A program made the translations under genes and the position numbers. The notes beneath the pieces were generated by a model. It was not told the origin of the DNA. It did no database searches and saw only the letters and a program-made list of their open reading frames with translations. A stretch of 38,987 bases of DNA from a virus. Location of the stretch: positions 1 through 38,987 of the IMG/VR virus record IMGVR_UViG_3300017788_000073; one strand, written 5' to 3'. Shown here piece by piece: positions 5,888 through 38,987 of this stretch; the stretch's first letter is position 1; each line of letters begins with the position of its first letter.

Positions 5888-8043
5888 TGCATCTCTCCTC
5901 CCATCATGGGAGTTTCACGTGAAACCGAGGGCGCTACCAAGTCCCCTGTTGACATCATACCTGCAAGTGTGCCTGCAATGATATCTTGAACTTGTTGCTC
6001 GTTGAGGCCCGTCTCCACGGCCTTGATGCGGTCGGTTTCGGCTTGATACGCCTTGACCTGCGCCTCGAACTCCTTGACCTCAACCTCACGCGCTTCCATC
6101 GACTGCTGGACGTTCTGAAGCATATTGAACATCTGCTCCATCTCCGCGCCCATCGCTTGAATCTGCTGCTGCGCGGCTTGGAGTGCGGGTGATTCGTCGG
6201 AGGCTTCGAGCAACTTCGGATCAATCGTCTTGGCGAGCCGCTCGGCAATCTCCTGCGCCCCCGGCCAGTCCATGTTCTTGACGAAGAGGTCGCCGGCCAC
6301 CGCCCACAACTGCGGGTTGGCTTGCAAAATCTCGCCCATCGCCACCATCGCTTCCTGCCGCTTGGTGTAGTACGAGGGGCCGGTCGTAACCGCGACATCG
6401 TACTTACCCACCGACGGGTTGTAGATTTTCTCGATGACGATGCCCGATTCGTCCATGATCTTACGCACGGGTTCGGGCTGCGTCGGGTCGATCCGCACGG
6501 TGTCGGTTTCCCCGTCCATGCCGATGATGCGAGCAATCCGCTGCGTGTCGTAAATCTTCGGGATCAAGTCAACGAGTTGACGCGTGACATAGCGAATGGC
6601 GCGAGCCAGGTTATCGACGTAATGGTAGGTGCCTGTGTCGCCTTGCCGTTCACGCGCCAAGATAGCCCGACCCGAGCGCTCGTTAGACGTGGCGCCGAGG
6701 CTAGAGTCATATTGACCCGTTGTTGCTTTGATATCGTCCGATGCGCCCATTTTGGCCTGTATAAGGCCCGTCTGGGGCAGGGGCGGGGCTGCACGCTGCG
6801 GGAGCGGCAATACGCCACCCTGCGCGTCGGTCACGTCTGGATTGACCTCCAAATACGGCCAGTTGCTCGTATTGGCGGTTTTCCACTGGTGTTCGTAGCC
6901 TTCAAACTGACCGCCGTAGCCGATGAACGGGGCTTTGGGGGCGAGCGCGAGCATTTCGGCTTCTTGGCTCACCCAGTAGTTGTACATCCGCTGGGCGTCC
7001 TTGGCGTTACGCACCAAGCCAGAGATATACAACCGTCCATCAACCTCGAACTCGTTACCGACCACGCGCACGACCGGAATCCACTTACCCGGCCACTCCT
7101 GCTCTTCGAGGATTTCGTAGCCGTTGGTCTTCATCCACTTGATGCGGCGGACTTCGACATCACGCGAGCGAATGGGCTTGAGGCCCATCATCTCCATCTG
7201 CTTGGCTTCGGGCGAACCACCGTAGGCCGTGACGTTACCGGGATAGAGGTGCAGCTTTACGCTGTCGTAGTAGGCGTAAAAATACTCAGCAATCCGCACC
7301 GAATCTTCGCGTATCCACTGTGAGAGTTGTTCGTCACCGACGCCGCGAGTGCTGATGGAGGAGATCGGTTCGGCGTTCGGAAACAGCCGCTCAAACTCGT
7401 CCTTCGGCATATCTTCGGTGATAAAGCAGTATTCGGCGTCCGAGCCGCACGGGTCTTGGATGTGCGGGTCCATGTAGACGCTGAAACTGTTGCGGATGCG
7501 GCAGATACGGAGGTCTTGGTCGAACGTATCGTCGTCGCAGTATTCGGTGAGGATACGGACGTACCCTTCGCCGAAGGTGACCTGGTTATCGCAGGCGGTG
7601 TCGTAAGCGACATCGGCGTCCGAGATGTACTCGATATGGCGCACCATGCCGTCGAACACTTGCGCGACTTCGATGTCGGCCTTGTCATCGACGGGAATGA
7701 CCTTACCCGCAGGACGGTTCTGGCGCTGATCGTTCGTCACCTGACGAACGTGCTGCGGGAGTTTGTTGATGGTGAGGCAGGGGCGAGCGTTAATCGTCTG
7801 CCCTTGCACCGCGCCACGGGTCGCCAAAACCTCTTGCGGCCATTGCCAACGGTTGTCTGGCGAGCCTGCCATAAAGCGCAGGTCATCGAGTTCGCTGTCG
7901 CGGGACTCGCTATAGGCCGACAGGGACTGTTGCAGACGGTCGCGCATCCGCGCCAATACGTCTGCCGCATCGCGGGTTTTACGCGACTGCGGGGAGTTGG
8001 CGACTTGCGCCGCCCCTTTGATGCCTGTCGGGTCTTGGGCCAT
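5884..8043 (-). CDS. Portal protein, P22-type
   Basis: 719 residues from ATG 8043 (MAQDPTGIKGAAQVANS); an open frame extends further upstream but runs antisense over the preceding small gene and reads as Arg/Ser-rich noise. The body has typical P22-portal features: LNTKLP-like TINKLPQHVRQVTNDQRQNR, a DIEVAQVFDGMVRHIEY helix, CRIRNSFSVYMDPHIQDPCG, and a long C-terminal coiled coil (about 620-690) rich in Gln and Glu, equivalent to the portal barrel. The dodecameric portal is the DNA gate and docking site for terminase and tail. It lies downstream of terminase, as usual, but upstream of tail fibres, with scaffold and coat on the far side of the contig junction. Confidence 0.9.
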   Translation of the reverse strand: MAQDPTGIKGAAQVANSPQSRKTRDAADVLARMRDRLQQSLSAYSESRDSELDDLRFMAGSPDNRWQWPQEVLATRGAVQGQTINARPCLTINKLPQHVRQVTNDQRQNRPAGKVIPVDDKADIEVAQVFDGMVRHIEYISDADVAYDTACDNQVTFGEGYVRILTEYCDDDTFDQDLRICRIRNSFSVYMDPHIQDPCGSDAEYCFITEDMPKDEFERLFPNAEPISSISTRGVGDEQLSQWIREDSVRIAEYFYAYYDSVKLHLYPGNVTAYGGSPEAKQMEMMGLKPIRSRDVEVRRIKWMKTNGYEILEEQEWPGKWIPVVRVVGNEFEVDGRLYISGLVRNAKDAQRMYNYWVSQEAEMLALAPKAPFIGYGGQFEGYEHQWKTANTSNWPYLEVNPDVTDAQGGVLPLPQRAAPPLPQTGLIQAKMGASDDIKATTGQYDSSLGATSNERSGRAILARERQGDTGTYHYVDNLARAIRYVTRQLVDLIPKIYDTQRIARIIGMDGETDTVRIDPTQPEPVRKIMDESGIVIEKIYNPSVGKYDVAVTTGPSYYTKRQEAMVAMGEILQANPQLWAVAGDLFVKNMDWPGAQEIAERLAKTIDPKLLEASDESPALQAAQQQIQAMGAEMEQMFNMLQNVQQSMEAREVEVKEFEAQVKAYQAETDRIKAVETGLNEQQVQDIIAGTLAGMMSTGDLVAPSVSRETPMMGGEMQ

Positions 8044-8044
8044 G

Positions 8045-8185
8045 TTATTTGCGCTTTTTGCCTTGGGCCTTACGCTTGACCGAATACGCAATGGCGAGGG
8101 CTTGCTTGACGGGCTTGCCTGCCTTGACTTCCGCCTTGATGTTCTTGCGGAATGCGCCTTTGGACGCGGACTTGACAAGCGGCAT
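8045..8185 (-). CDS. Small basic protein between terminase and portal
   Basis: 46 residues, strongly Lys/Arg-rich: [20 protein letters not shown] followed by [20 protein letters not shown] and a basic tail. The motif AGKPxKQAxAIAYS is recurrent in tiny phage proteins encoded just before portal genes. Its ATG overlaps the upstream stop (TAATG) and it ends one base before the portal ATG. It is too short for default gene callers. The charge suggests nucleic-acid or capsid-interior binding, but the role is unknown. Confidence 0.7.
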
Positions 8186-8385
8186 TAGCGCATTCCCCGC
8201 GTCTTCATTCGCGTCGGGCGAAAGTCCACGGTCGTGCGGATCGCATCGCTCTGCATAGGCCGCTTACGCGCCATCATGGCGGGCCGTTGCATCCGCGAGG
8301 GCTTTTGCAGCGCACGGGTGTTCTGGATCATGTCGCCCACGGTGACTGACCCCGGCATCACGCCTGCATATTCAAACTTTGCCAT
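8185..8385 (-). CDS. Small basic Met/Arg-rich protein
   Basis: 66 residues ([20 protein letters not shown] then [10 protein letters not shown]), Arg- and Met-rich in the C-terminal half ([17 protein letters not shown]). No recognised domain, membrane segment or cysteines. ATG 8385 lies two bases past the preceding stop and its own stop overlaps the start of the 46-residue basic protein, so it belongs to a chain of four tightly packed basic genes between terminase and portal. A role in packaging or head completion is inference from position only. Confidence 0.6.
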
Positions 8386-8387
8386 GA

Positions 8388-8546
8388 TTACTTCCTCTTT
8401 TTAGCCGTTTTGGCCGAGTCACGGAACGCTTTGGCCGTCGGAGCGCCTTTCGCGCCAGCCGTTCGCATCTTTTCGCCACTGCCTGCGGCGATTCTACGTC
8501 TTTTCGCCGCGATATTGGCGTACAAACCGGGTTTATGACTGCTCAT
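8388..8546 (-). CDS. Small Lys/Arg/Ala-rich protein
   Basis: 52 residues: MSSHKPGLYANIAAKRRRIA then AGSGEKMRTAGAKGAPTAKA and a basic end. This KPGLYANI-AKRxRI-AGSGEKMR-GAPTAKAF pattern is one I associate with tiny phage proteins that accompany DUF6321 genes. The start overlaps the stop of the DUF6321-like gene (TAATG). It is short enough to be missed by default gene calling. The highly basic, low-complexity composition suggests DNA contact inside the head; no direct evidence of function. Confidence 0.65.
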   Translation of the reverse strand: MSSHKPGLYANIAAKRRRIAAGSGEKMRTAGAKGAPTAKAFRDSAKTAKKRK

Positions 8547-8806
8547 TAGCATTTCCACCGTTTTAGTGAGGCTTTGGCCCGTTCGGCTGGGCCTTTAGCG
8601 TTACGAACCACGCCTTTCATGCGAGCGCAGAACGATTTCTTGCGTCCTGCCTCCGCTTTGGTCTTGGGGCTGGGCGCCGGAGCCTTGAGGTTACTGCCCG
8701 TCGCACGGTTGTACTTCGCACGACCCTTGGCGGTGAGGCCCGCACCCGCTTTGACGGACTGCTTCTCGCCGCGACCGACCGATAAACTGACCGATTTACG
8801 CCCCAT
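8546..8806 (-). CDS. DUF6321-like basic protein
   Basis: 86 residues from ATG 8806 (MGRKSVSLSVGRGEKQSVK); the longer open frame upstream is not supported because it reads into the gap after the terminase stop. Characteristic segments are GAGLTAKGRAKYNRATGSNL, KAPAPSPKTKAEAGRKKSFC and the C-terminal AKASLKRWKC. It matches the DUF6321 family common in phages between terminase and portal genes. Two conserved cysteines (in KSFCARM and the terminal KRWKC) are visible. Function unknown. Confidence 0.75.
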   Translation of the reverse strand: MGRKSVSLSVGRGEKQSVKAGAGLTAKGRAKYNRATGSNLKAPAPSPKTKAEAGRKKSFCARMKGVVRNAKGPAERAKASLKRWKC

Positions 8807-8834: not shown

Positions 8835-10364
8835 TTACGCCCCCAGCCACGAGTTGTGCATCGCGCTGCCCTCATACGCCGTCACGCGGCGGGGTTTTTC
8901 GCGGTATTCGCGGCTCGCCACAGGGTACGCAAACGTACAGGCCAAGGCATCAGCGGCGTCCGGGGAGGCGAGGCCACGCGCTTTCATGTCTTTCTTGGCT
9001 TCCAACTGGATCGACCCCGAGGAATTCGGTTTCTGATGTGGCCCTGTGAGGTCGGCTTTCAGTTGTCGGTCTTGCGGAATCGACGCCGTTTGCAGCCACT
9101 CGCGCATCGAACCCCAGAGTTCAGCGCGTTTGTTGGCGTACATCGCCGGGGTCTTCGACTTCCAACTAAAATTCACGCCCCGAACGACCTTATACCGTTG
9201 CTCTTTTAGACGGTCAAGGATGCCGTAGCCAAGGCCACCTTCGTCTAGGACCACCAGCGCCGGTTGGAACTCTTCGATGGCGTCAATAACGCGACCCACT
9301 GTTGCCATCGTGTCTTCGCCTTGGTAACGACGGATTGCCACCAGGTCGCGGCCTTGTCGGACCACGATGACGGTGGAGTCGGCACCGGAGCGGGCGGGGT
9401 CCACGCCGACAACTTTTGGTGCGGTCTCATCCTTATAACGCCCTCGGACACTGGCACTGTCGACCAATGACGGAGGGATAAATTGGTCGTCTCCGTCGGA
9501 GGGGAACTGTCCGTAGACTTCGATTTTGGCTTGCGAGGAGTCTGCGCCGTATTCCGCAATGATTTGCTCGTAGACCGCTTTGTCCGTGTCTTCGACTTCG
9601 CGGGCGTCGATGTTCTGCGTCTGCCAGAAGTTTCTTTTCGCATGGAATGCCTCGAAGAAGTAGCCTTCGTTACGCCTAGGGTTACTGAACGCACACCAAA
9701 AACGGTTGGGCGTGTTTTCAGTAAAGAAGCCTTGAGCAACGTCCCATATTTTGTCTGGTATACCCGAGCTTTCGTCGAAAATCAGCATAACGCCATCCGC
9801 GTTGTGCAGACCCGCATACGCATCGGGGTTTTCTTCCGACCACAATCGTCCCTCAACCGCCCAATATCGGGTACCTTTTTTAAGGTCGCGCTCAACCAAC
9901 TCCGCAATCCACTTGGCGGGCGAGAGGCGCGTAGCCGAAATCTCAAACCAATGATTGTTAATTGACATGGCGAGCCACTTGGTAATTTCCGCCCAAGTGA
10001 TTGAGCGAAGCTGCGCCTCCGAGTTAGCCGATACGATGACCGACCCGCCGATGCGCGTAGAGAGCATCCAAAGCGTAATCCAAGACACCAACGCAGATTT
10101 GCCGATACCACGGCCCGAAGCTACGGCCATACGAAACACTTTGTAGTCCACGCGGCCTTGATTGTCGGCAATGTGTTGCTTGATCAGCCGCAAGATGTCG
10201 CGCTGCCATTTGCGCGGCCCTTTATGGTGTTCCAGCGGCGTGCCTTTCTGGCCCCACGGAAACACAAACCGCACAAACGCTTCGGGATCGTTAGCAACGT
10301 CCTTGGCCCAGATACGGGTCATCAAGGCCATTTCGTCTTCGGGACTATAGATGGGCGTCTGCAC
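8835..10364 (-). CDS. terL: Terminase large subunit (ATPase/nuclease)
   Basis: 509 residues. The packaging ATPase domain shows Walker A ASGRGIGKS (82-90), Walker B GVMLIFDE (191-198) and coupling motif AFSNP (225-229). The RNase-H-fold nuclease domain shows VVGVDPARSGADST (Asp 322), LVVLDEGG (Asp 374) and SPDAADAL (Asp 469/472). It cuts concatemeric DNA and pumps it through the portal. It starts at GTG 10364 with a GGAAG site inside the end of the small subunit gene (20-bp overlap), so the two subunits are probably coupled. Confidence 0.93.
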   Translation of the reverse strand: MQTPIYSPEDEMALMTRIWAKDVANDPEAFVRFVFPWGQKGTPLEHHKGPRKWQRDILRLIKQHIADNQGRVDYKVFRMAVASGRGIGKSALVSWITLWMLSTRIGGSVIVSANSEAQLRSITWAEITKWLAMSINNHWFEISATRLSPAKWIAELVERDLKKGTRYWAVEGRLWSEENPDAYAGLHNADGVMLIFDESSGIPDKIWDVAQGFFTENTPNRFWCAFSNPRRNEGYFFEAFHAKRNFWQTQNIDAREVEDTDKAVYEQIIAEYGADSSQAKIEVYGQFPSDGDDQFIPPSLVDSASVRGRYKDETAPKVVGVDPARSGADSTVIVVRQGRDLVAIRRYQGEDTMATVGRVIDAIEEFQPALVVLDEGGLGYGILDRLKEQRYKVVRGVNFSWKSKTPAMYANKRAELWGSMREWLQTASIPQDRQLKADLTGPHQKPNSSGSIQLEAKKDMKARGLASPDAADALACTFAYPVASREYREKPRRVTAYEGSAMHNSWLGA

Positions 10365-10827
10365 GTTGCTCTTCCAAGGCTACGGTTTCCACAACGTTAT
10401 GCCCTAGTGCAAGCCTCTCGCCCTGCAGTATGCGGCCCTCGATAACGCGAGACTCCGCCTCTTGCAGTGCAGCGGTGATACTGATCTGTGACTTGATATC
10501 AATGCTGATCTGCTGTTTTGGCATCCACTCGTGCAAATGGGTGAGCAGCGCCATAGCTGCCTTGCTATCGCCAGCCATAGCCGCATCTCGCACGACGGCA
10601 GCCGCTTCAACTTCACTGTCTGCACGACCCTTAGCCTCCGCGATAGAGGCCGCATGGTCAAGCGCCAAGAGCCGACGTAACTCAATCGGTAGTAAGCCCG
10701 CAGCAAACGCCAGGGCATCACCCTTGATGCCTAACTTCGAGGCTTCGTAGATACGCTCGAGTATCTCCGGCGTTGCCTTCAACTCCCGAGGCTCAAATGG
10801 AATCGATCTAAAGGCTTCCAAGCGCAC
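10345..10827 (-). CDS. terS: Terminase small subunit-like protein
   Basis: Up to 160 residues, mainly helical, directly upstream of and overlapping the large terminase gene. The N-terminal part (RELKATPEILERIYEASKLG followed by IKGDALAFAAGL) resembles a small HTH that would bind the packaging site; a central helical region may oligomerise. GTG 10827 is only about two bases from the GAGGAG site; TTG 10821, five bases after it, is a better-spaced start giving 158 residues. The assignment rests on position, size and helical character. Confidence 0.72.
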   Translation of the reverse strand: MRLEAFRSIPFEPRELKATPEILERIYEASKLGIKGDALAFAAGLLPIELRRLLALDHAASIAEAKGRADSEVEAAAVVRDAAMAGDSKAAMALLTHLHEWMPKQQISIDIKSQISITAALQEAESRVIEGRILQGERLALGHNVVETVALEEQRADAHL

Positions 10828-10999
10828 TCCTCACTCGTGTCTCTTTCTCGTAACCCTCACCGTCACACGAAGGTTGTTCGGTAAGCCAGCCATGCCAAAC
10901 CTTATGCGCACACCAGATGTTGTTGGTCAAGCGAGTCACGTCTGCCGACCAAAAACAGTCACGGCATAACTTTAAGGCAGGGTTAAGGGGTTCTTCCAT
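10808..10999 (-). CDS. Small four-Cys putative zinc-binding protein
   Basis: 63 residues with four cysteines: LCRDCFW near 12-15, NIWCAHKVW near 30 and QPSCDGEGYEKE near 45. This CxxC-C-C layout with aromatic neighbours resembles a small treble-clef or zinc-ribbon protein. It is the gene immediately before the terminase small subunit and overlaps it by 20 bases. Similar short Cys-rich proteins occur at the head of phage packaging operons, with unknown function. It starts at ATG 10999. Confidence 0.65.
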   Translation of the reverse strand: MEEPLNPALKLCRDCFWSADVTRLTNNIWCAHKVWHGWLTEQPSCDGEGYEKETRVRSALGSL

Positions 11000-11003
11000 A
11001 GGG

Positions 11004-11129
11004 TCAGCGTGTGGGGTCTGCCCACCGGGAGGCCGCGATCTCCAACAACCGTGGAGCCTGTGTGCCGAGGCGGAGCGTCCGTAAGGACGGTATTGCCTTA
11101 TGTATACGGTGAATGCTAGCCGGAGACAT
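11004..11129 (-). CDS. Short basic ORF at the head of the late operon
   Basis: A 41-codon frame: MSPASIHRIHKAIPSLRTLR, then LGTQAPRLLEIAASRWADPT and a final Arg. ATG 11127-11129 has AGGTGA nine bases upstream and AGGG closer in; an in-frame TGA lies 12 bases before the ATG, so the start is fixed. It stops four bases before the ATG of the Cys-rich gene, in line with the operon. No recognised family. Composition (Arg, Leu, Ala) is protein-like and the codon choice resembles its neighbours, but it is short and could be fortuitous. Confidence 0.45.
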   Translation of the reverse strand: MSPASIHRIHKAIPSLRTLRLGTQAPRLLEIAASRWADPTR

Positions 11130-11176
11130 AACCCTTATTCACCTTCAGCTTCCTCTCGGTCGCTACGTGCGCATCA

Positions 11177-11191
11177 CGTCAGACGCTGACG
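11177..11191. promoter_or_regulatory. Operator-like palindrome CGTCAG-ACG-CTGACG
   Basis: A perfect 6-bp inverted repeat with a 3-bp centre, 48 bases upstream of the first possible late gene and just below an A/T tract. Length and symmetry fit a dimeric HTH repressor site. I did not find a second full copy; a half site (CGTCAGCG) occurs at about 11299. Confidence 0.45.
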
Positions 11192-11203
11192 AAAGTGTAG
11201 CGT

Positions 11204-11228
11204 AAATATAAAAAATAAAAAATTGTTT
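11204..11228. promoter_or_regulatory. A/T-rich tract
   Basis: A 25-base run of almost pure A and T in an otherwise G/C-rich genome. On the minus strand it contains TATATT, a good -10 match for late transcription, but no good -35 lies 16-18 bases upstream, so a phage-controlled promoter or a DNA-unwinding element are both possible. Confidence 0.4.
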
Positions 11229-11246
11229 GCGGGTCTAACCGTAACA

Positions 11247-11292
11247 GTACAGGGGGTGGCTCTGGCCCTGTACCCCCACCCCCCCCCACCCC
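11247..11292. other. Hairpin plus C-run block with G-quadruplex potential on the minus strand
   Basis: GTACAGGG (11247-11254) and CCCTGTAC (11266-11273) form a perfect 8-bp inverted repeat with an 11-base loop. An alternative pairing uses GGGGGT (11252-11257) with ACCCCC (11272-11277). Next come runs of 5, 9 and 4 cytosines (11273-11277, 11279-11287, 11289-11292) separated by single A residues. The minus strand therefore carries at least four close G-runs, a quadruplex-type motif. Confidence 0.6.
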
Positions 11293-11303
11293 TGTCGCGT
11301 CAG

Positions 11304-11368
11304 CGCAACAAGTAGCGTTTCCCACAACAAGCAACGTCATAACATAACGTGTAGCGTAGACGCAACAA
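11304..11368. repeat. Short repeated elements CGCAACAA and GTAGCGT
   Basis: CGCAACAA occurs at 11304-11311 and 11361-11368. GTAGCGT occurs at 11312-11318 and 11351-11357, with a further copy at 11197-11203. The two elements appear in opposite order in the two clusters. A related CACAACAAGCAACG lies between them. This resembles a small iteron or operator array, but the copies are short. Confidence 0.4.
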
Positions 11369-11389
11369 CCTAGTGCAACCACTACGCGG

Positions 11390-11441
11390 TCATGCGTTGG
11401 CATGATGTTTGCATGGGACAAAGTGTTGCGTGTAAGCAACA
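11390..11441. repeat. Two short perfect hairpins
   Basis: TCATGC-GTTG-GCATGA (11390-11405) and TGTTGC-GTGTAA-GCAACA (11424-11441) are perfect 6-bp inverted repeats 18 bases apart. Neither is followed by a T-run, so neither is a terminator. They may be protein-binding sites; the second repeats the GCAACA core of the neighbouring repeats. Confidence 0.4.
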
Positions 11442-11574
11442 GAAAGCCTGGCAAAGATCGTGCCAAAGGGTGACCGAGGGGTGGATACGTGGTCACATGG
11501 TAAAAGTGCTTGAAAACGTTACCATAGGTTAAGTGCATGATTCTGCTAGGGAATTTGGCTGTTATGGTGAGATT

Positions 11575-11604
11575 TTGAGAAAAAGTGCATATACCATCTA
11601 TATA
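11575..11604 (+). promoter_or_regulatory. Candidate sigma70-type promoter for the small-gene operon
   Basis: TTGAGA (5/6 match to -35) at 11575-11580, an 18-base spacer and TATATA (4/6) at 11599-11604. It points toward the gene at 11818 and would give a leader of about 200 bases that includes a pyrimidine-rich stretch. This is the best such match I found in the region; other A/T-rich hexamers nearby make the exact choice uncertain. Confidence 0.4.
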
Positions 11605-11817
11605 CATACTTTACATAATCTACCTACGATTCCTTCCACACTTCTCACTTTTCCCTATTTTTTACCATAAACCTGTTTTTTCCTTTTCCTTTCATACACT
11701 TACGCTATGGTCAAAATTCTGTATCCGCTACATGGTCATGCCATGCGATACGCTAAACTTTAGTTTGCATCTATGTTCCAATGCATTGTCGATTCACTAA
11801 ATAACTACAGGTGACCT

Positions 11818-12141
11818 ATGACGACAATTATCGAAAACAAACTGATCGCCACAGGGTTTGAGCGCATATCAACGGGGGGAGGCTGTTATGCTTATTACAA
11901 ACCCGTAGACGGCAACCGTTACGTCATCGTAACGGACTCCGGCGGTATCGCGACCAATATAACTAATGACGACTACATCGTAGGACTTGAGGAAGAGGGC
12001 ACACAACTTGCCTACATCCTGCGCGACGGTAGCCGATCCCTTGTAGAAGTAGAAAACTACGCAGGGAATCCCACGATTAACCCTTCCCGCGATTACGCCA
12101 CCGTTGACGCAGCGCTTGCCGCATTCGGGGTGCAAGTATGA
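11818..12141 (+). CDS. Unknown early protein, first gene of the small-gene operon
   Basis: 107 residues beginning MTTIIENKLIATGFERIST. Mostly alternating beta-strands with a Gly/Tyr-rich segment (GGGCYAYYKPVDGNRYVIV) and an acidic middle (LEEEGTQ). I do not recognise the family. The start is set by the leader AGGTGACCTATG, repeated in front of three other genes of this unit. Its stop overlaps the start of the next gene. A host-takeover or regulatory role would be a guess based only on position. Confidence 0.7.
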   Translation: MTTIIENKLIATGFERISTGGGCYAYYKPVDGNRYVIVTDSGGIATNITNDDYIVGLEEEGTQLAYILRDGSRSLVEVENYAGNPTINPSRDYATVDAALAAFGVQV

Positions 12142-12254
12142 AGCGCCCCACAATCCTATTCGCTTTACTTGCCGCACTCTACTTGCTAGCGGCATTCGTT
12201 GACCCGTGCGACAACGCACCGAACTGCAATCCCACAACCATCAAAAACCAATAG
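12138..12254 (+). CDS. Tiny membrane or exported peptide
   Basis: 38 residues: MKRPTILFALLAALYLLAAF, then VDPCDNAPNCNPTTIKNQ. Two basic residues followed by an 18-residue hydrophobic stretch look like a signal anchor; the remaining polar tail has two cysteines that could form a disulphide in the periplasm. ATG 12138 overlaps the preceding stop (ATGA), supporting coupled translation. A superinfection-exclusion or membrane-modulating role is possible but not shown. Too short for default gene calling. Confidence 0.65.
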   Translation: MKRPTILFALLAALYLLAAFVDPCDNAPNCNPTTIKNQ

Positions 12255-12261
12255 GTGACTT

Positions 12262-12510
12262 ATGCATCCTTACGCTCAATACAAGCCCAACGGCAAGCTC
12301 TGGCACGCAGGAAAAACCATCTATGGATTGTGTGCTGCTTGGAACCATGCCACTAGTCCATCTCGTTTAATGACTAAAGAAGAGCATAAGCGTGCAAACG
12401 CATATGCGCGGGCAATCCGCAATCGCATTATGCGAATGGGATATCGGGACGGTACGCACTACATGATATGGCACGAAAATGGGCATATGCAGCCCAAGGC
12501 TATTCGTTGA
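12262..12510 (+). CDS. Unknown basic early protein
   Basis: 82 residues, basic and helical: MHPYAQYKPNGKLWHAGKTI, then a central MTKEEHKRANAYARAIRNRI helix and a His/Trp-rich end (HYMIWHENGHMQPKAIR). No recognised domain; the charge suggests nucleic-acid binding. The start is defined by AATAGGTGACTTATG, the same initiation element as at 11818, 12593 and 13458. It is followed by an 82-base gap carrying two perfect hairpins. Confidence 0.65.
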   Translation: MHPYAQYKPNGKLWHAGKTIYGLCAAWNHATSPSRLMTKEEHKRANAYARAIRNRIMRMGYRDGTHYMIWHENGHMQPKAIR

Positions 12511-12526
12511 TTGATAGTGCAGCCTG

Positions 12527-12569
12527 TAGCGCATTCTTACGGGTGCGCTATGGGACGCGCTATCGCGTC
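12527..12569 (+). other. Two adjacent perfect hairpins in the intergenic gap
   Basis: TAGCGCA (12527-12533) pairs with TGCGCTA (12544-12550), and GACGCG (12554-12559) pairs with CGCGTC (12564-12569) across a CTAT loop. No T-run follows. The pair sits between two genes of the same operon, just before a copy of the repeated initiation element, and could act in mRNA processing or translation control. Confidence 0.5.
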
Positions 12570-12592
12570 GAATAACTATCTACAGGTGACCT

Positions 12593-12880
12593 ATGCAAAC
12601 TGATACCCGCCGCCACAACGGATGGACAAATTACGCCACTTGGCGCGTGAGTCTTGAGGTGTTCGATGGGTTTAACCCGTTTGATTACTTCAGCGATTGC
12701 AACCCCGATGATATTTATGGCCTATCTAAAGACTTGCAGGATTACGCGGATGAGGTGTTATTTGAGGACGCAACGGTTGAGGGACTGGCGGCAGGTTACG
12801 CTCGCGCCTTTCTTGCTGACGTTAATTGGTACGAAATCGCTGAACACTTGGTCGACGCTTACCGCGAGGAGGCCGTATGA
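12593..12880 (+). CDS. NGWTNYATW-type phage protein
   Basis: 95 residues. The N-terminal motif HNGWTNYATWRVSLEVFDGF is a recognisable signature of a widespread small phage/plasmid family (DUF7249-like) of unknown function. It is followed by an acidic helical region (SKDLQDYADEVLFEDATVEG) and an amphipathic C-terminus ending EIAEHLVDAYREEAV. The start follows TACAGGTGACCTATG, a copy of the repeated initiation element. Its end overlaps the next gene by four bases. Confidence 0.75.
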   Translation: MQTDTRRHNGWTNYATWRVSLEVFDGFNPFDYFSDCNPDDIYGLSKDLQDYADEVLFEDATVEGLAAGYARAFLADVNWYEIAEHLVDAYREEAV

Positions 12881-13140
12881 CTATGCTGCACACTCCCGCG
12901 CCTTGGTCGCTTGGCTCGAACGGTGCGACTACGAAAGTTGTAGACGCAGACGGCAAAGCAATCTGCATGGTGACGTACCGAAAAGACCATTGGAACGGCG
13001 ACCTACTTGTCGCCGCGCCTAACCTTCTCGCCGCTTTGCGGCTCGCCGAATCTGCCCTTGACGCGTATTCCGGCGGCGAGTCTGCCGACCTTGCCGCGAT
13101 CCGCGCCGCCATTGCTTTAGCCACAGGGGACAACGCATGA
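12877..13140 (+). CDS. Small phage protein of the LLVAAPNLLAAL type
   Basis: 87 residues. HTPAPWSLGSNGATTKVVDA, a GDLLVAAPNLLAALRLAESA helix and a C-terminal AIRAAIALATGD are typical of a common phage hypothetical family. The C-terminal half resembles the product of 13458-13667 (LLSAAPAMLDALR...VRAAIAKATG), suggesting the two genes are paralogues within one operon. ATG 12877 overlaps the preceding stop. Function unknown. Confidence 0.75.
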   Translation: MTMLHTPAPWSLGSNGATTKVVDADGKAICMVTYRKDHWNGDLLVAAPNLLAALRLAESALDAYSGGESADLAAIRAAIALATGDNA

Positions 13141-13379
13141 AAATCGAAGCAATCTATGTGCATGGGTTCGTATTAACCGACGCGGGTGACGGCGATACGT
13201 TAAGCGAATATGTAGACATGGAAGCACGGCGACCCGACGGGTTTTGTGCCTATGAGATATGGGCGGATGGGAGTGAGTGGGATGGCGGGGAGGAATGCGA
13301 CTTCCCGACACTTGAGGCTGCTCTAGCGTGGGCAGACGCTCGCGCCGCCGTCCATAACGTGCCCGTGCAGGTCTATTGA
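13137..13379 (+). CDS. Unknown acidic early protein
   Basis: 80 residues, acidic and Trp/Tyr-rich: MKIEAIYVHGFVLTDAGDGD, then YEIWADGSEWDGGEECDFPT and a helical end LEAALAWADARAAVHNVPVQ. No recognised domain. The high net negative charge raises the possibility of a DNA-mimic or inhibitor protein, which is speculation. ATG 13137 overlaps the stop of the previous gene (ATGA). It is followed by a 78-base gap containing a strong hairpin. Confidence 0.65.
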   Translation: MKIEAIYVHGFVLTDAGDGDTLSEYVDMEARRPDGFCAYEIWADGSEWDGGEECDFPTLEAALAWADARAAVHNVPVQVY

Positions 13380-13391
13380 GTCGTTACCCTT

Positions 13392-13418
13392 TGCCGCACC
13401 TGCCCACGGGGTGCGGCA
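13392..13418 (+). other. 9-bp perfect hairpin in the operon
   Basis: TGCCGCACC (13392-13400) pairs with GGTGCGGCA (13410-13418) around a 9-base loop. It lies 12 bases after a stop codon and about 40 bases before the next ATG. No T-run follows, so it is more likely a processing or partial-termination signal than a simple terminator. Confidence 0.5.
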
Positions 13419-13457
13419 CGGGGTGGCGATTGTGCCGCCTAACTGAAAGGGTGACTT

Positions 13458-13667
13458 ATGCAAATTGAAGTTATAGGCCCGCGCACGGGCAAGTACACGG
13501 GCAACCTATTGTCTGCCGCTCCTGCGATGCTTGACGCATTACGCTGCGCTCTTGCCGATTTAGAGGGAATCTTGCCGGAATACGATCCCGAACGCGAGCA
13601 TCCCGCGTGGGAGACATTGGAAGAGGTTCGCGCCGCTATTGCCAAAGCAACGGGGGTGCAACCATGA
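13458..13667 (+). CDS. Small phage protein, paralogue of the 12877 gene
   Basis: 69 residues: MQIEVIGPRTGKYTGNLLSA, then APAMLDALRCALADLEGILP and a VRAAIAKATGVQP end. The NLLSAAPAMLDALR and RAAIAKATG segments align with NLLAALRLAESA and RAAIALATG of the product of 12877-13140. The start is set by AAAGGGTGACTTATG, the fourth copy of the repeated initiation element. Overlaps the following gene by four bases. Function unknown. Confidence 0.7.
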   Translation: MQIEVIGPRTGKYTGNLLSAAPAMLDALRCALADLEGILPEYDPEREHPAWETLEEVRAAIAKATGVQP

Positions 13668-15874: not shown

Positions 15875-15914
15875 GCCCCGGCAGAAGTAACCCCCTCTGT
15901 CCGGGGCTTTTTTT
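15875..15914 (+). terminator. Plus-strand intrinsic terminator with no plus gene upstream
   Basis: Stem GCCCCGG (15875-15881), a 19-base loop, stem CCGGGGC (15901-15907) and seven T residues (15908-15914). It faces plus-strand transcription although the genes here are on the minus strand. It may be a backup for read-through from the small-gene unit or end an antisense RNA. On the minus strand the hairpin lies between the HTH gene and the helicase gene and lacks a U-run. Confidence 0.7.
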
Positions 15915-16134
15915 ATGCGATGAGGTCGGGCGTACTGCCCCGCGCAATTAATCGGTAGCTGGCATATTTCTTGCCATTGCGCGTCGCGAACTCGGTGGTA
16001 ATGCAATAGCCTTGTCTGCGCAGATCGTCAATCCGCGCCGCTAACCGAAAGCAACCATAGTCTCTGAGCGCATCGAGCGGCGTGATGGACTTGCCGCTCA
16101 GTAACGCTTGTCTGATTTCGTCTACTTGTCGCAT
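15913..16134 (-). CDS. Small HTH DNA-binding protein (HTH_39-like)
   Basis: 73 residues starting MRQVDEIRQALLSGKSITPL, then DALRDYGCFRLAARIDDLRR and QGYCITTEFATRNGKKYASY. This is the compact winged-helix pattern of the HTH_39 family (PF14090) common in phages. ATG 16134 with AAGAGGTG four bases upstream is preferred over GTG 16140. It stops just before the helicase leader and may regulate this unit or act at the origin; both are inference. Confidence 0.75.
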   Translation of the reverse strand: MRQVDEIRQALLSGKSITPLDALRDYGCFRLAARIDDLRRQGYCITTEFATRNGKKYASYRLIARGSTPDLIA

Positions 16135-16143
16135 AAACACCTC

Positions 16144-19791: not shown

Positions 19792-19950
19792 ATGGATATC
19801 AATAAATTGCTCAAGAAATTCGGCAGCGCTTCGGCGTTGGCGCGGGCGTTCGGCGTCTCCAGACAGGCGGTCGCCAAGTGGATGGCCGCAGGTGAACTGC
19901 CGCCGCTGCGGGTGTACCAGGCTCGGGAACTGATGCGGAAAGTTCTGTGA
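19792..19950 (+). CDS. Cro-like helix-turn-helix regulator
   Basis: 52 residues from ATG 19792: MDINKLLKKFGSASALARAF, then GVSRQAVAKWMAAGELPPLR and VYQARELMRKVL. The core SASALARAFGVSRQAVAKWM is a Cro/YdaS-type HTH with a recognition helix SRQAVAKW; the GELPPLRVYQA end is characteristic of this family. The start is favoured by the promoter geometry; the longer frame upstream would have to begin in the -35 region. It likely binds the overlapping promoters and sets the balance between the two early units. Confidence 0.82.
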   Translation: MDINKLLKKFGSASALARAFGVSRQAVAKWMAAGELPPLRVYQARELMRKVL

Positions 19951-20780
19951 GGTACGGCAGCGTCTGTAGCGGCATTGAAGCCGCAACCGTCGCATGGGAT
20001 TCGCTCGGATGGACTCCTGTATTTTTTAGTGAAATAGAACCTTTCCCTTGCGCGGTGTTGAAACACCATTACCCTGCCGTGCCTAACTACGGCGACATGA
20101 CTAAATTTGCGGAGTGGCCGAATGAATCAATCGACGTTCTCGTGGGAGGAACCCCATGCCAAAGTTTTAGTGTCGCGGGACTTAGAGCAGGACTGGCTGA
20201 CCCGCGTGGCAACCTCATGCTTACCTACCTTGCGATTGCTGACCGATATCGGCCCGAGTGGTTGGTTTGGGAAAACGTCCCCGGCGTCTTGTCGTCTAAC
20301 GGAGGACGGGATTTTGGAACCTTCCTCGCAGGGTTGGGCGAGCTCGGGTATGGGTTCGCCTACCGAATTCTTGACGCTCAATACTTCGGAGTGGCCCAAA
20401 GACGCCGCCGTGTGTTCGTTGTCGCAAACGCTAGAAGTTGGCAACGTGCCGCAGCGGTTCTTTTTGAGCGCGAAAGCCTGTGCGGGAATCCTGCGCCGAG
20501 CAGAGAGGCACGGGAAGGCGTTGCCGGAACCATTGCGGCTCGCTTTGGAATCAGTCGTAACAACCACGAAGAGTTAGCGTGGCCTGCGGAAGTTGCGTCA
20601 ACGCTAAACGCCGCATTTGGTTGCAAGCAAGGACTAGAGGATCAGCACGCGCTAGGGGGGGGCAGCTCTTTGTCCCCGCCAGAAATAGCGATGTGTCTTA
20701 ACGCAGGCGCAATGGGCAGACAAGACGCATCAAGTGAGACATTGATTCCCGTGACAGAGGGGGGGGGGGTAGACCAATGA
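19947..20780 (+). CDS. DNA (cytosine-5) methyltransferase, N-terminal part (frame-split)
   Basis: 277 residues from GTG 19947 (overlaps the regulator stop as GTGA). Motif I is VCSGIEAATVAW (6-17). The catalytic Pro-Cys loop is VGGTPCQSFSVAGLRAG (67-83, Cys 71). Motif VI is WENVPGV (108-114) and motif VIII is QRRRRVFVVA (151-160). It then enters the variable target-recognition region and stops at 20780, so motifs IX and X are absent from this frame; they lie in the next frame. The break follows an 11-G tract. As it stands this fragment should be inactive. No restriction partner is encoded, so an intact form would be a solitary protective or regulatory methylase. Confidence 0.88.
   Translation: MRYGSVCSGIEAATVAWDSLGWTPVFFSEIEPFPCAVLKHHYPAVPNYGDMTKFAEWPNESIDVLVGGTPCQSFSVAGLRAGLADPRGNLMLTYLAIADRYRPEWLVWENVPGVLSSNGGRDFGTFLAGLGELGYGFAYRILDAQYFGVAQRRRRVFVVANARSWQRAAAVLFERESLCGNPAPSREAREGVAGTIAARFGISRNNHEELAWPAEVASTLNAAFGCKQGLEDQHALGGGSSLSPPEIAMCLNAGAMGRQDASSETLIPVTEGGGVDQ
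20759..20769 (+). repeat. 11-G homopolymer at the methyltransferase frame break
   Basis: Eleven consecutive G residues. In the upstream frame they include G GGG GGG, a canonical -1 slippery form. A -1 slip here gives ...VTEGGGGRPMTFGAQ..., joining the two halves. One added G or two lost would do the same. A second G8 run is at 20655-20662 in the same gene. Base calling in such runs is error-prone. Confidence 0.85.
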
Positions 20781-21376
20781 CTTTTGGAGCGCAAATGTCA
20801 AATCCGCAGGTAGACGTTGATATGGTGCAGACGTTACAGGCCAAAAATCCGATGGCCGTTGCATTTGCCAAGACCCATAAGCCGATGTCTGAGACTGACC
20901 CCGAAGGTTGGTCGCCTGTGGATGCGGCTCCGACCGTGACGCATTGGCCGCGAGATCGCAGCGACACGGGCACCGATGTGGCCGTTGTATCTTATGGCAT
21001 CGACGGCGAGCAAAACTGCCATAAAGAACTTATGGGAACTTTGCGCTCGCATCAGTCGGGCGGGTATGAAGGCGCGAGAGTTGCGCAGCCGGTGGCGCCG
21101 TCATTAACGGCATCTAACGACCCAAGCCGCAGCCCGCAGTCTAGCGAGGTGACGCAGCAGGTCGGCGCCATTCACAGCGTAACCATGCAAGTGCGCCGCC
21201 TTACGCCCGTTGAGTGCGAGCGGCTGCAAGGCTTTCCAGACGGTTACACCAACATCCCGTGGCGCAAGAAAGACGAAAGCCCGGACGGGCCACGTTACAA
21301 GGCGCTAGGTAATAGCATGGCCGTGCCTGTAATGAACTGGATTGGGCAGCGCATACAAAAGGTGAGCGAACTATGA
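20777..21376 (+). CDS. DNA (cytosine-5) methyltransferase, C-terminal part
   Basis: 199 residues in the -1 frame relative to the first half; ATG 20777 overlaps its stop (ATGA), so reinitiation is also possible. The first 130 residues are the variable target-recognition region with short repeats (DMVQTLQAKNPMAVAF; MGTLRSHQSGGYEG). The end has motif IX, RRLTPVECERLQGFPDGY (140-157), and motif X, RYKALGNSMAVPVMNWIG (173-190). These complete the enzyme begun at 19947. The two pieces in trans could in principle reassemble, as split C5 methylases are known to do. Confidence 0.85.
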   Translation: MTFGAQMSNPQVDVDMVQTLQAKNPMAVAFAKTHKPMSETDPEGWSPVDAAPTVTHWPRDRSDTGTDVAVVSYGIDGEQNCHKELMGTLRSHQSGGYEGARVAQPVAPSLTASNDPSRSPQSSEVTQQVGAIHSVTMQVRRLTPVECERLQGFPDGYTNIPWRKKDESPDGPRYKALGNSMAVPVMNWIGQRIQKVSEL

Positions 21377-38546: not shown

Positions 38547-38905
38547 GCGGCCTCCGCAGCAACCCAAGCCTGAGCGGCTTCATCCCACGAGTACATCTTG
38601 CCGTCCGTCGGCATCGGCACCGGGGCTTGCCAGTTGCAATCGCTATCCAGCGACCACGACGGGTACGGCTGCGGCGGGATAAAGGCATCGCGGCCCTCGT
38701 CGTAGGTGTAACCGATCCCGGCGTAGTGCTTGCGGATGTTGCCGTTGTAGGAAGTCTGTTTCCAGTTACCGCCGAGCAATCGCTGGCAGAAGGCGACACC
38801 AATGGCCTCCACCTCGTTGCCGCTCGCGTCTGCCGTATCCTTGTTGGCTACAACGATCACGCGCTGCACCACGCTGTTTGAATCAATCTCTGCAAAGTGC
38901 GCCAT
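38543..38905 (-). CDS. MAHFAEI-type small virion-region protein
   Basis: 120 residues: MAHFAEIDSNSVVQRVIVVA, GNEVEAIGVAFCQRLLGGNW, KQTSYNGNIRKHYAGIGYTY and DEGRDAFIPPQPYPSWSLDS. This is a well-populated family in aquatic phages, always near tail or structural genes, of unknown role; the conserved YNGNIRKxYAGIGYTYD block suggests a folded beta-domain. The 5' end of a second allele of the same gene lies at 1-25, differing only at synonymous positions. Confidence 0.82.
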   Translation of the reverse strand: MAHFAEIDSNSVVQRVIVVANKDTADASGNEVEAIGVAFCQRLLGGNWKQTSYNGNIRKHYAGIGYTYDEGRDAFIPPQPYPSWSLDSDCNWQAPVPMPTDGKMYSWDEAAQAWVAAEAA

Positions 38906-38987
38906 ATCAATTCTCCAAATGCAAAGCGGTGAGACTTTCTTCCTCACCAACGTAACCGACCGGGAAAGTGTTGAACGAAAGCGATAC
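38881..38987. repeat. Terminal direct repeat, right copy
   Basis: Copy of bases 1-107, identical from 38901 on. Only the first 20 bases differ (four changes). Marks the contig closure point. Confidence 0.93.
38907..38987 (-). CDS. 3' fragment of the 2OG-Fe(II) oxygenase gene
   Basis: Identical to bases 27-107. It encodes the last residues of the oxygenase (FPVGYVGEEESLTALHLEN preceded by VSLSFNT) and runs off the window. It is the same gene as 27-626, seen again because the contig overlaps itself, not a second oxygenase. Confidence 0.9.
   Translation of the reverse strand, partial: VSLSFNTFPVGYVGEEESLTALHLEN

Follow-up and report, generated by a model that had tools for sequence, protein, structure and literature searches.

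A cloverleaf RNA encoded beside the terminase genes of environmental phages

Between positions 11000 and 11194, the minus strand of the virus record IMGVR_UViG_3300017788_000073 almost certainly encodes a genuine structured RNA, as judged from the way its paired bases change together among relatives. The whole 38,987-base record was analysed and is referred to here as the window. The RNA has the outline of a cloverleaf and lies upstream of the terminase genes, and we have filed it, based on sequence comparisons, as a previously undescribed family within a known kind, the phage structured RNAs. In our best reading, to which we assign a probability of roughly 45%, it would be a stand-alone, horizontally moving accessory phage RNA.

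The window encodes a P22-type portal (phrog_156), a major head protein (phrog_283), a head closure protein (phrog_578) and a TerL, along with an Erf-type annealing protein, a RecE-type exonuclease and a primase-like protein. No match to named phages was found at the DNA level; the nearest TerL proteins are those of MW202483 (68%) and phage DSL-LC05 (65%), and TerL relatives are encoded on at least 599 stretches in IMG/VR. The region from 11130 to 11817, the subject of an earlier note, lies between leftward genes (ORF63, terS, terL and portal) and small rightward genes that begin at 11818. Neither ORF63 nor the terS of the window matched a protein family. A ribosome-binding stretch, ACAGGTGACCTATG, is common to the rightward genes starting at 11818 and 12593, and ORF63 has none.

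8835–10364, minus strand: terL, terminase large subunit (phrog_2, E 1.5e-42)
10345–10827, minus strand: terS, terminase small subunit (assigned by position and by conservation beside terL)
10808–10999, minus strand: ORF63, the first ORF 3' of the cloverleaf RNA

The earlier note was correct that no gene explains the motifs of this region, which belong to three separate things: the RNA, a DNA element and a set of dyads. Its reading of a control region is supported in part: the region separates divergent operons and contains a conserved DNA element, operator-like dyads and promoters, while the structured RNA gene was unforeseen. The main feature that it missed, the minus-strand RNA, begins inside the region and extends out of it to 11000. 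The conservation in related genomes that the note had proposed to look for was strong: BLAST of 10300–12600 against relatives returned two blocks, 11025–11075 and 11142–11184, at about 90–95% identity in many loci. Both are conserved in loci with diverged surroundings and, once aligned, their variable positions change in pairs. The RNA is about 120–215 nt long in different copies; in the window its structured part runs from about 11190 to 11003, with one end only inside 11130–11817.

11000–11194, minus strand: cloverleaf RNA (span of the covariance model, 162 bits; RNA position n is window coordinate 11195-n)
11183–11190, minus strand: 5' strand of P1, the closing, 'acceptor-like' helix, which pairs with 11003–11010 (covariation)
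11165–11179, minus strand: P2, a 5-bp hairpin with the loop AUGCG (double changes in 3 of its 5 pairs)
11160–11163, minus strand: 5' strand of P6, GCGA, which pairs with 11035–11038 (UCGC) and encloses P3 and P4 (covariation)
11065–11159, minus strand: P3 domain, with a 5-bp base and interior hairpins of variable length (covariation)
11040–11056, minus strand: P4 hairpin, 5 bp (4 of 5 pairs with double changes)
11035–11038, minus strand: 3' strand of P6, UCGC (covariation)
11011–11025, minus strand: P5 hairpin, 5 bp, abutting P1 without a linker ('T-arm-like'; covariation)
11003–11010, minus strand: 3' strand of P1, ending 3 nt before the ORF63 ATG (covariation)

In this fold P1 encloses three elements, P2, P5 and P6, the last of which divides into P3 and P4. 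The resulting cloverleaf runs from the closing helix through a 5-bp arm, a single base, the branched middle arm and a linker to a second 5-bp arm, after which there is no linker. The 15-bp palindrome CGTCAGACGCTGACG reported earlier at 11177–11191 is present; we rejected it as a unit of its own because relatives retain only its P1/P2 part.

The fold was assessed on an alignment of 59 distinct RNA copies (A1), in which the 3' anchor GATCGCGGCCTCCCG is invariant because it served as a search pattern. With five helices, 96.7% of the 1652 cells in A1 held standard pairs, compared to 83.1% in shuffles, and double changes occurred in 20 of the 28 pairs, compared to 14.3 in shuffles; none of 500 shuffles reached the observed values, and sliding the partner strands left merely 26–41% paired. 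The inner five pairs of P1 were always paired in the 59 copies, three of them with double changes, and the outer three were weaker, being unpaired in 35, 9 and 9 copies. Compensatory changes of this extent, set against both shuffled and slid controls, are those of a structured RNA. A measure of 'further pair types' was not above shuffles on A1 (389/500), and the lone window sequence folded no better than its shuffles (z -0.77).

P6 was paired in 116 of 116 cells of a wider set, with double changes in two of its four pairs, a count that is unbiased by the model since the alignment (A2) was made with a model lacking P6. In the diverged copies L409, L428, L429, L431 and L432, GCGA x UCGC gives way to GUGU x ACGC or to ACGU x GCGU, a compensatory replacement that supports P6 as the helix enclosing P3 and P4. 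The whole structure including P6 has 32 pairs, 24 of them with double changes, and 96.0% of cells paired in the wider set. P3 is reduced to a stub in L302 and L391, which gives a minimal form of 121 nt. Repeated GGGACCC/GGGTCCC motifs occur before the RNA and within the P3 domain in L409, L429, L431 and L432. An anti-Shine-Dalgarno role for the linker GGCCUCCCG was considered and rejected, as L302 and L464 do not keep the linker.

No sense frame is open in 63 of 67 copies, and 46 of the 67 share an open antisense frame. The latter might suggest an overlapping coding sequence on the opposite strand, which we consider highly improbable: the length of the RNA does not change in multiples of three (dividing it by 3 leaves the three possible remainders in 11, 36 and 20 copies), so that the open frame is taken as an effect of composition, and the changes are compensatory in paired bases.

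A pattern scan found the cloverleaf RNA in at least about 120 environmental virus stretches. The covariance model detected it in 51 of 87 sources with scores of 43–183 bits and nothing weaker, and further copies came from pattern scans and from TerL relatives in two other phage groups. Among 30 whole records, 16 carry the RNA, in one copy each. The neighbour survey covered 151 of 159 anchor loci, the other eight being set aside on account of a truncated or differing 5' pattern (L150, for example, begins AUCUG); several anchor loci are the same contig twice, hence the survey represents 83 distinct main-type copies. The main terS follows in 78 of these, four run into a contig end, and the remaining copy (on three contigs, L110/L153/L160) has another terS-like gene and another TerL after it. 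In the third phage group the RNA stands directly before a small ORF, followed by TerL and portal genes, and in L464, L465 and L467 there is a strongly diverged copy, which in L464 precedes a main-type terS by about 12 nt. The RNA precedes genes that are not homologous to one another: the main terS, ORF63, an unrelated terS-like gene and a 186-aa ORF. In L302, of the third group, an ArdC-type antirestriction gene (7611–8582) lies between the terS-like gene and the RNA.

The TerLs of group 2 and group 3 are distantly related to each other (27%, E 2e-23), and the main TerL has no significant similarity to either (E 0.24 and 1.5), so that the RNA accompanies two unrelated types of terminase. An RNA that is shared by two unrelated terminase types and has no relative in Rfam provides a concrete handle on the RNA biology of dsDNA phages.

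The RNA has been gained or lost among close relatives, and its distribution is patchy. A TerL tree with 67 tips, of which 49 carry the RNA and 18 lack it, requires at least four changes, three of them forced by well-supported branches. These tips come from 83 main loci, 14 having been left out for too little upstream sequence or no terS match and two more for want of a long TerL; L006, left out of the tree, is RNA-positive in its whole record. L032, L033 and L035 share an identical TerL with the RNA-bearing L034 but have no RNA themselves, and their leader retains the terS promoter and a scar consisting of the last bases of P5 and P1. Deletions of the L032 type are natural knock-outs and, with the 121-nt minimal form and the covariance model, make the role of the RNA testable. 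In group 2 the RNA was found in none of 73 other loci; of 80 group 3 loci, 12 are on contigs that carry it, some of the negative contigs having too little sequence upstream. A second covariance model gave not even a weak match in 97 RNA-less or distant sources. Group 2 relatives at 92% (L224–L227) have a different hairpin in the slot of the RNA just upstream of terS, GCCGGGAGATG...CATCTTCCGGC followed by TTGCCTTTTT, which is a candidate terminator or another RNA.

The linkage to terminase genes in 78 of 83 main-type copies (four of the rest being contig ends and one lying beside another terminase) raises the possibility of a packaging RNA, that is, a terminase or portal cofactor similar to the pRNA of phi29. 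Both RNAs are phage-encoded and structured, with ends that pair, and the cloverleaf RNA is linked to packaging genes. The pRNA fold differs from that of the cloverleaf RNA, and phi29-type motors work without a terS. The two are comparable in length, pRNA being given as 174 nt in an excerpt of PMC11476376, which also calls it unique to phi29 and related phages. The cloverleaf RNA, unlike pRNA, is missing from close relatives, its phages possess a terS, and it has no match in Rfam. An essential packaging role is hard to square with the identical TerLs found without the RNA, and overall we regard a role of this type as improbable.

Transcription was examined with sigma70 matrices. In the window the candidate promoter of the RNA is as follows:

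11194–11222, minus strand: candidate RNA promoter, with -10 TACACT at 11199–11194 and a poor -35 TTTTTT at 11222–11217

In 30 of 43 non-redundant loci (70%; 19% in shuffles) a sigma70-like site precedes P1 by a fixed distance, and from this constant offset transcription would start at about the first base of P1. The score of the window's own site was not above shuffles (p 0.44), and no fixed promoter before P1 was seen in groups 2 and 3. The promoter proposed by the earlier note at 11575–11604 was not recovered, as 9500–13500 held no sigma70-like site where 3.6 were expected by chance.

A second promoter, TTGTCT-17 nt-TANNGT, lies between the RNA and terS in all five non-redundant MFKSLP-type terS loci (27% in shuffles), which are related to one another; its -10 begins 12 nt before the ATG in four of them and 14 nt before it in the fifth. 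With such a promoter terS would be leaderless and independent of the RNA in that clade. No second promoter fits in the window, so there the RNA would be the leader of an ORF63-terS-terL message. In the MFKSLP-type clade the RNA therefore looks like a separate unit, and in the window and L003-type phages like a leader; we lean somewhat towards a stand-alone RNA over one that acts purely in cis.

The main rival of the stand-alone reading is a cis-acting leader of the terminase or late operon, which might provide put-like antitermination, stabilise the message or control the translation start of terS. It would agree with the RNA heading terminase-portal genes in all three groups, with a first ATG only 3–4 nt after P1 in the window and L003, and with the RNA-less L002, L012 and L015, in which a -10 box just before the terS ATG (found by eye) seemingly makes terS leaderless, such that the RNA fills the gap between start and ATG elsewhere. 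Set against this are the bypassing second promoter in five of five loci tested in one clade, the lack of homology among the downstream genes, and the identical terL operons that have no RNA, and we consider a purely cis role rather unlikely. HK022 put, like the cloverleaf RNA, is a phage RNA heading an operon, and is described as acting in cis on early genes (PMC9378689, in part); the cloverleaf RNA differs in its place beside terminase operons and in the promoter that bypasses it in one clade.

Returning to the stand-alone reading, the RNA would have a sigma70-type promoter of its own, be transcribed from the first base of P1 onwards, and act in trans as an accessory ('moron') RNA. By analogy with tRNA, its likeliest action would be to occupy a tRNA-handling host or defence factor, since its outline copies that of a tRNA (the closing helix has about 7 bp, a single base precedes the middle arm, and a 5-bp arm abuts the closing helix); where it lies inside an operon, it might be trimmed by RNase P, again by analogy. 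We offer an accessory or counter-defence role tentatively. In favour of the stand-alone reading we count the covariation, the non-homologous downstream genes, the fixed promoter, the terS promoter that bypasses the RNA, and the patchiness. Against it we count the lone-sequence fold, the leader position in the window and L003-type phages, the lack of a fixed promoter in groups 2 and 3, and the departures from tRNA. It is also possible, though we hold it with less than even confidence, that this is a new class of RNA: a mobile cloverleaf gene that enters a slot beside the terminase genes of unrelated phages, where it would either mimic tRNA and act in trans against a factor of the host or of a defence system, or represent a second type of packaging-linked RNA that arose independently of the first.

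The cloverleaf RNA resembles tRNA in outline only. A four-way cloverleaf with a 5-bp arm abutting the closing helix was found as in tRNA; unlike a tRNA, the RNA has a branched middle arm without an anticodon, a P2 loop of five bases and no CCA end, and a 7-base P5 loop occurs in L110 only. Identity with a tRNA or a known RNA family was rejected, as ARAGORN called no tRNA or tmRNA and Rfam 15 gave no match at the gathering threshold for the window and seven other loci; permissive Rfam scans returned merely miRNA-type chance matches (E 0.83 and 1.8) or none. DNA similarity searches for the RNA in named phages, plasmids and E. coli gave nothing beyond chance, and no copy was found in five named phage records searched whole. 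Presence in bacterial genomes was likewise rejected, the 26 pattern matches in genome contigs (top score 19.6 bits) being judged chance. No earlier report of the RNA was found in the open-access literature, including excerpts of PMC2864571, PMC12286853, PMC8040213 and PMC11476376.

Among other phage RNAs, GOLLD and ROOL are also structured and without an assigned function, but both have Rfam profiles, whereas the cloverleaf RNA matches nothing in Rfam; they are described as much larger and often near tRNA islands (PMC12286853, in part). Phage tRNAs are reported to evade retrons (PMC11555353, in part). Racrs, the RNA anti-CRISPRs, are solitary phage RNA genes with a counter-defence role (PMC10651486, in part), and the cloverleaf RNA is similar to them in being a solitary gene with a possible role of that kind, but Racrs mimic CRISPR repeats.

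The remaining motifs lie upstream of the RNA:

11210–11224, minus strand: conserved T tract AATTTTTTATTTTTT, the A/T tract of the earlier note (in 40 of 49 loci)
11264–11292, minus strand: conserved G-run and GGGCC block, the C-run of the earlier note, 44 nt upstream of the T tract (conservation)
11293–11310, plus strand: operator-like 18-bp dyad TGTCGCGTCAGCGCAACA (repeat analysis)
11350–11367, plus strand: operator-like 18-bp dyad TGTAGCGTAGACGCAACA (repeat analysis)
11424–11441, plus strand: operator-like 18-bp dyad TGTTGCGTGTAAGCAACA (repeat analysis)

The A/T tract (reported as 11204–11228) and the C-run block CCCCCACCCCCCCCCACCCC (11273–11292) are present as described, as are an 8-bp hairpin, GTACAGGG/CCCTGTAC, at 11247–11273 and two further hairpins at 11390–11405 and 11424–11441. 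The C-run block contains the only 9-C run of the window, and G-runs of 8 and 11 occur at 20655 and 20759. Forty-nine loci were examined for the block and the T tract together; 37 have GGGCC within reach, and in 32 of these it stands 42–51 nt before the T tract. Seven of the 32 are RNA-less, and the G-run/T-tract element is therefore independent of the RNA. The A/T tract and the C-run make up a single conserved DNA element upstream of terS, whose most obvious candidate role is that of a pac, cos or regulatory site.

The location upstream of terS, with this element and the dyads adjoining, would also suit a DNA site (pac/cos or a replication origin) whose hairpins act as DNA, and the earlier note had proposed an origin or packaging start. 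The GC skew that it suggested as a check was computed and merely tracks gene direction. With the element conserved in seven loci without the RNA, with the RNA missing from phages of identical TerL, and with six covarying helices and conserved linkers that fit an RNA fold better, we think that such a site is a quite improbable explanation of the cloverleaf.

The reported repeats CGCAACAA and GTAGCGT are real and resolve into the three 18-bp dyads listed above, which have the form TGTnGCGTnnnnGCAACA, together with half sites. TGTNGCGT occurs eight times in the window, five of them within the 688 bases, far above chance (shuffled mean 0.13; none of 300 shuffles reached five). By eye, the upstream repeats are lineage-specific (TGTNGCGT in the window, TGACCCA in L002, TTGCCCACA in L025), as expected of operators or iterons. 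A 75-aa winged-helix protein encoded at 15913–16140 (PF14090, E 3.8e-13) is a candidate binder of the dyads. The pyrimidine-rich stretch at 11630–11702, in the leader of the rightward genes, was also rightly noted: at 81% it is among the richest 73-nt windows of the record, and none in the 38,987 bases exceeds it.

Elsewhere in the window, a cytosine-5 methyltransferase (19947–21376) is split over the adjoining frames 19947–20780 and 20777–21376, both halves having PHROGs matches, and the junction is closely preceded by the 11-G run (20759) and the 8-G run (20655), an arrangement that looks like a site of slippage, phase variation or frameshifting. Positions 1–60 and 38900–38987 hold similar starts of a tail-type gene (MAHFAEID...) and, since these are not identical, they look like paralogous copies and not an exact terminal repeat.
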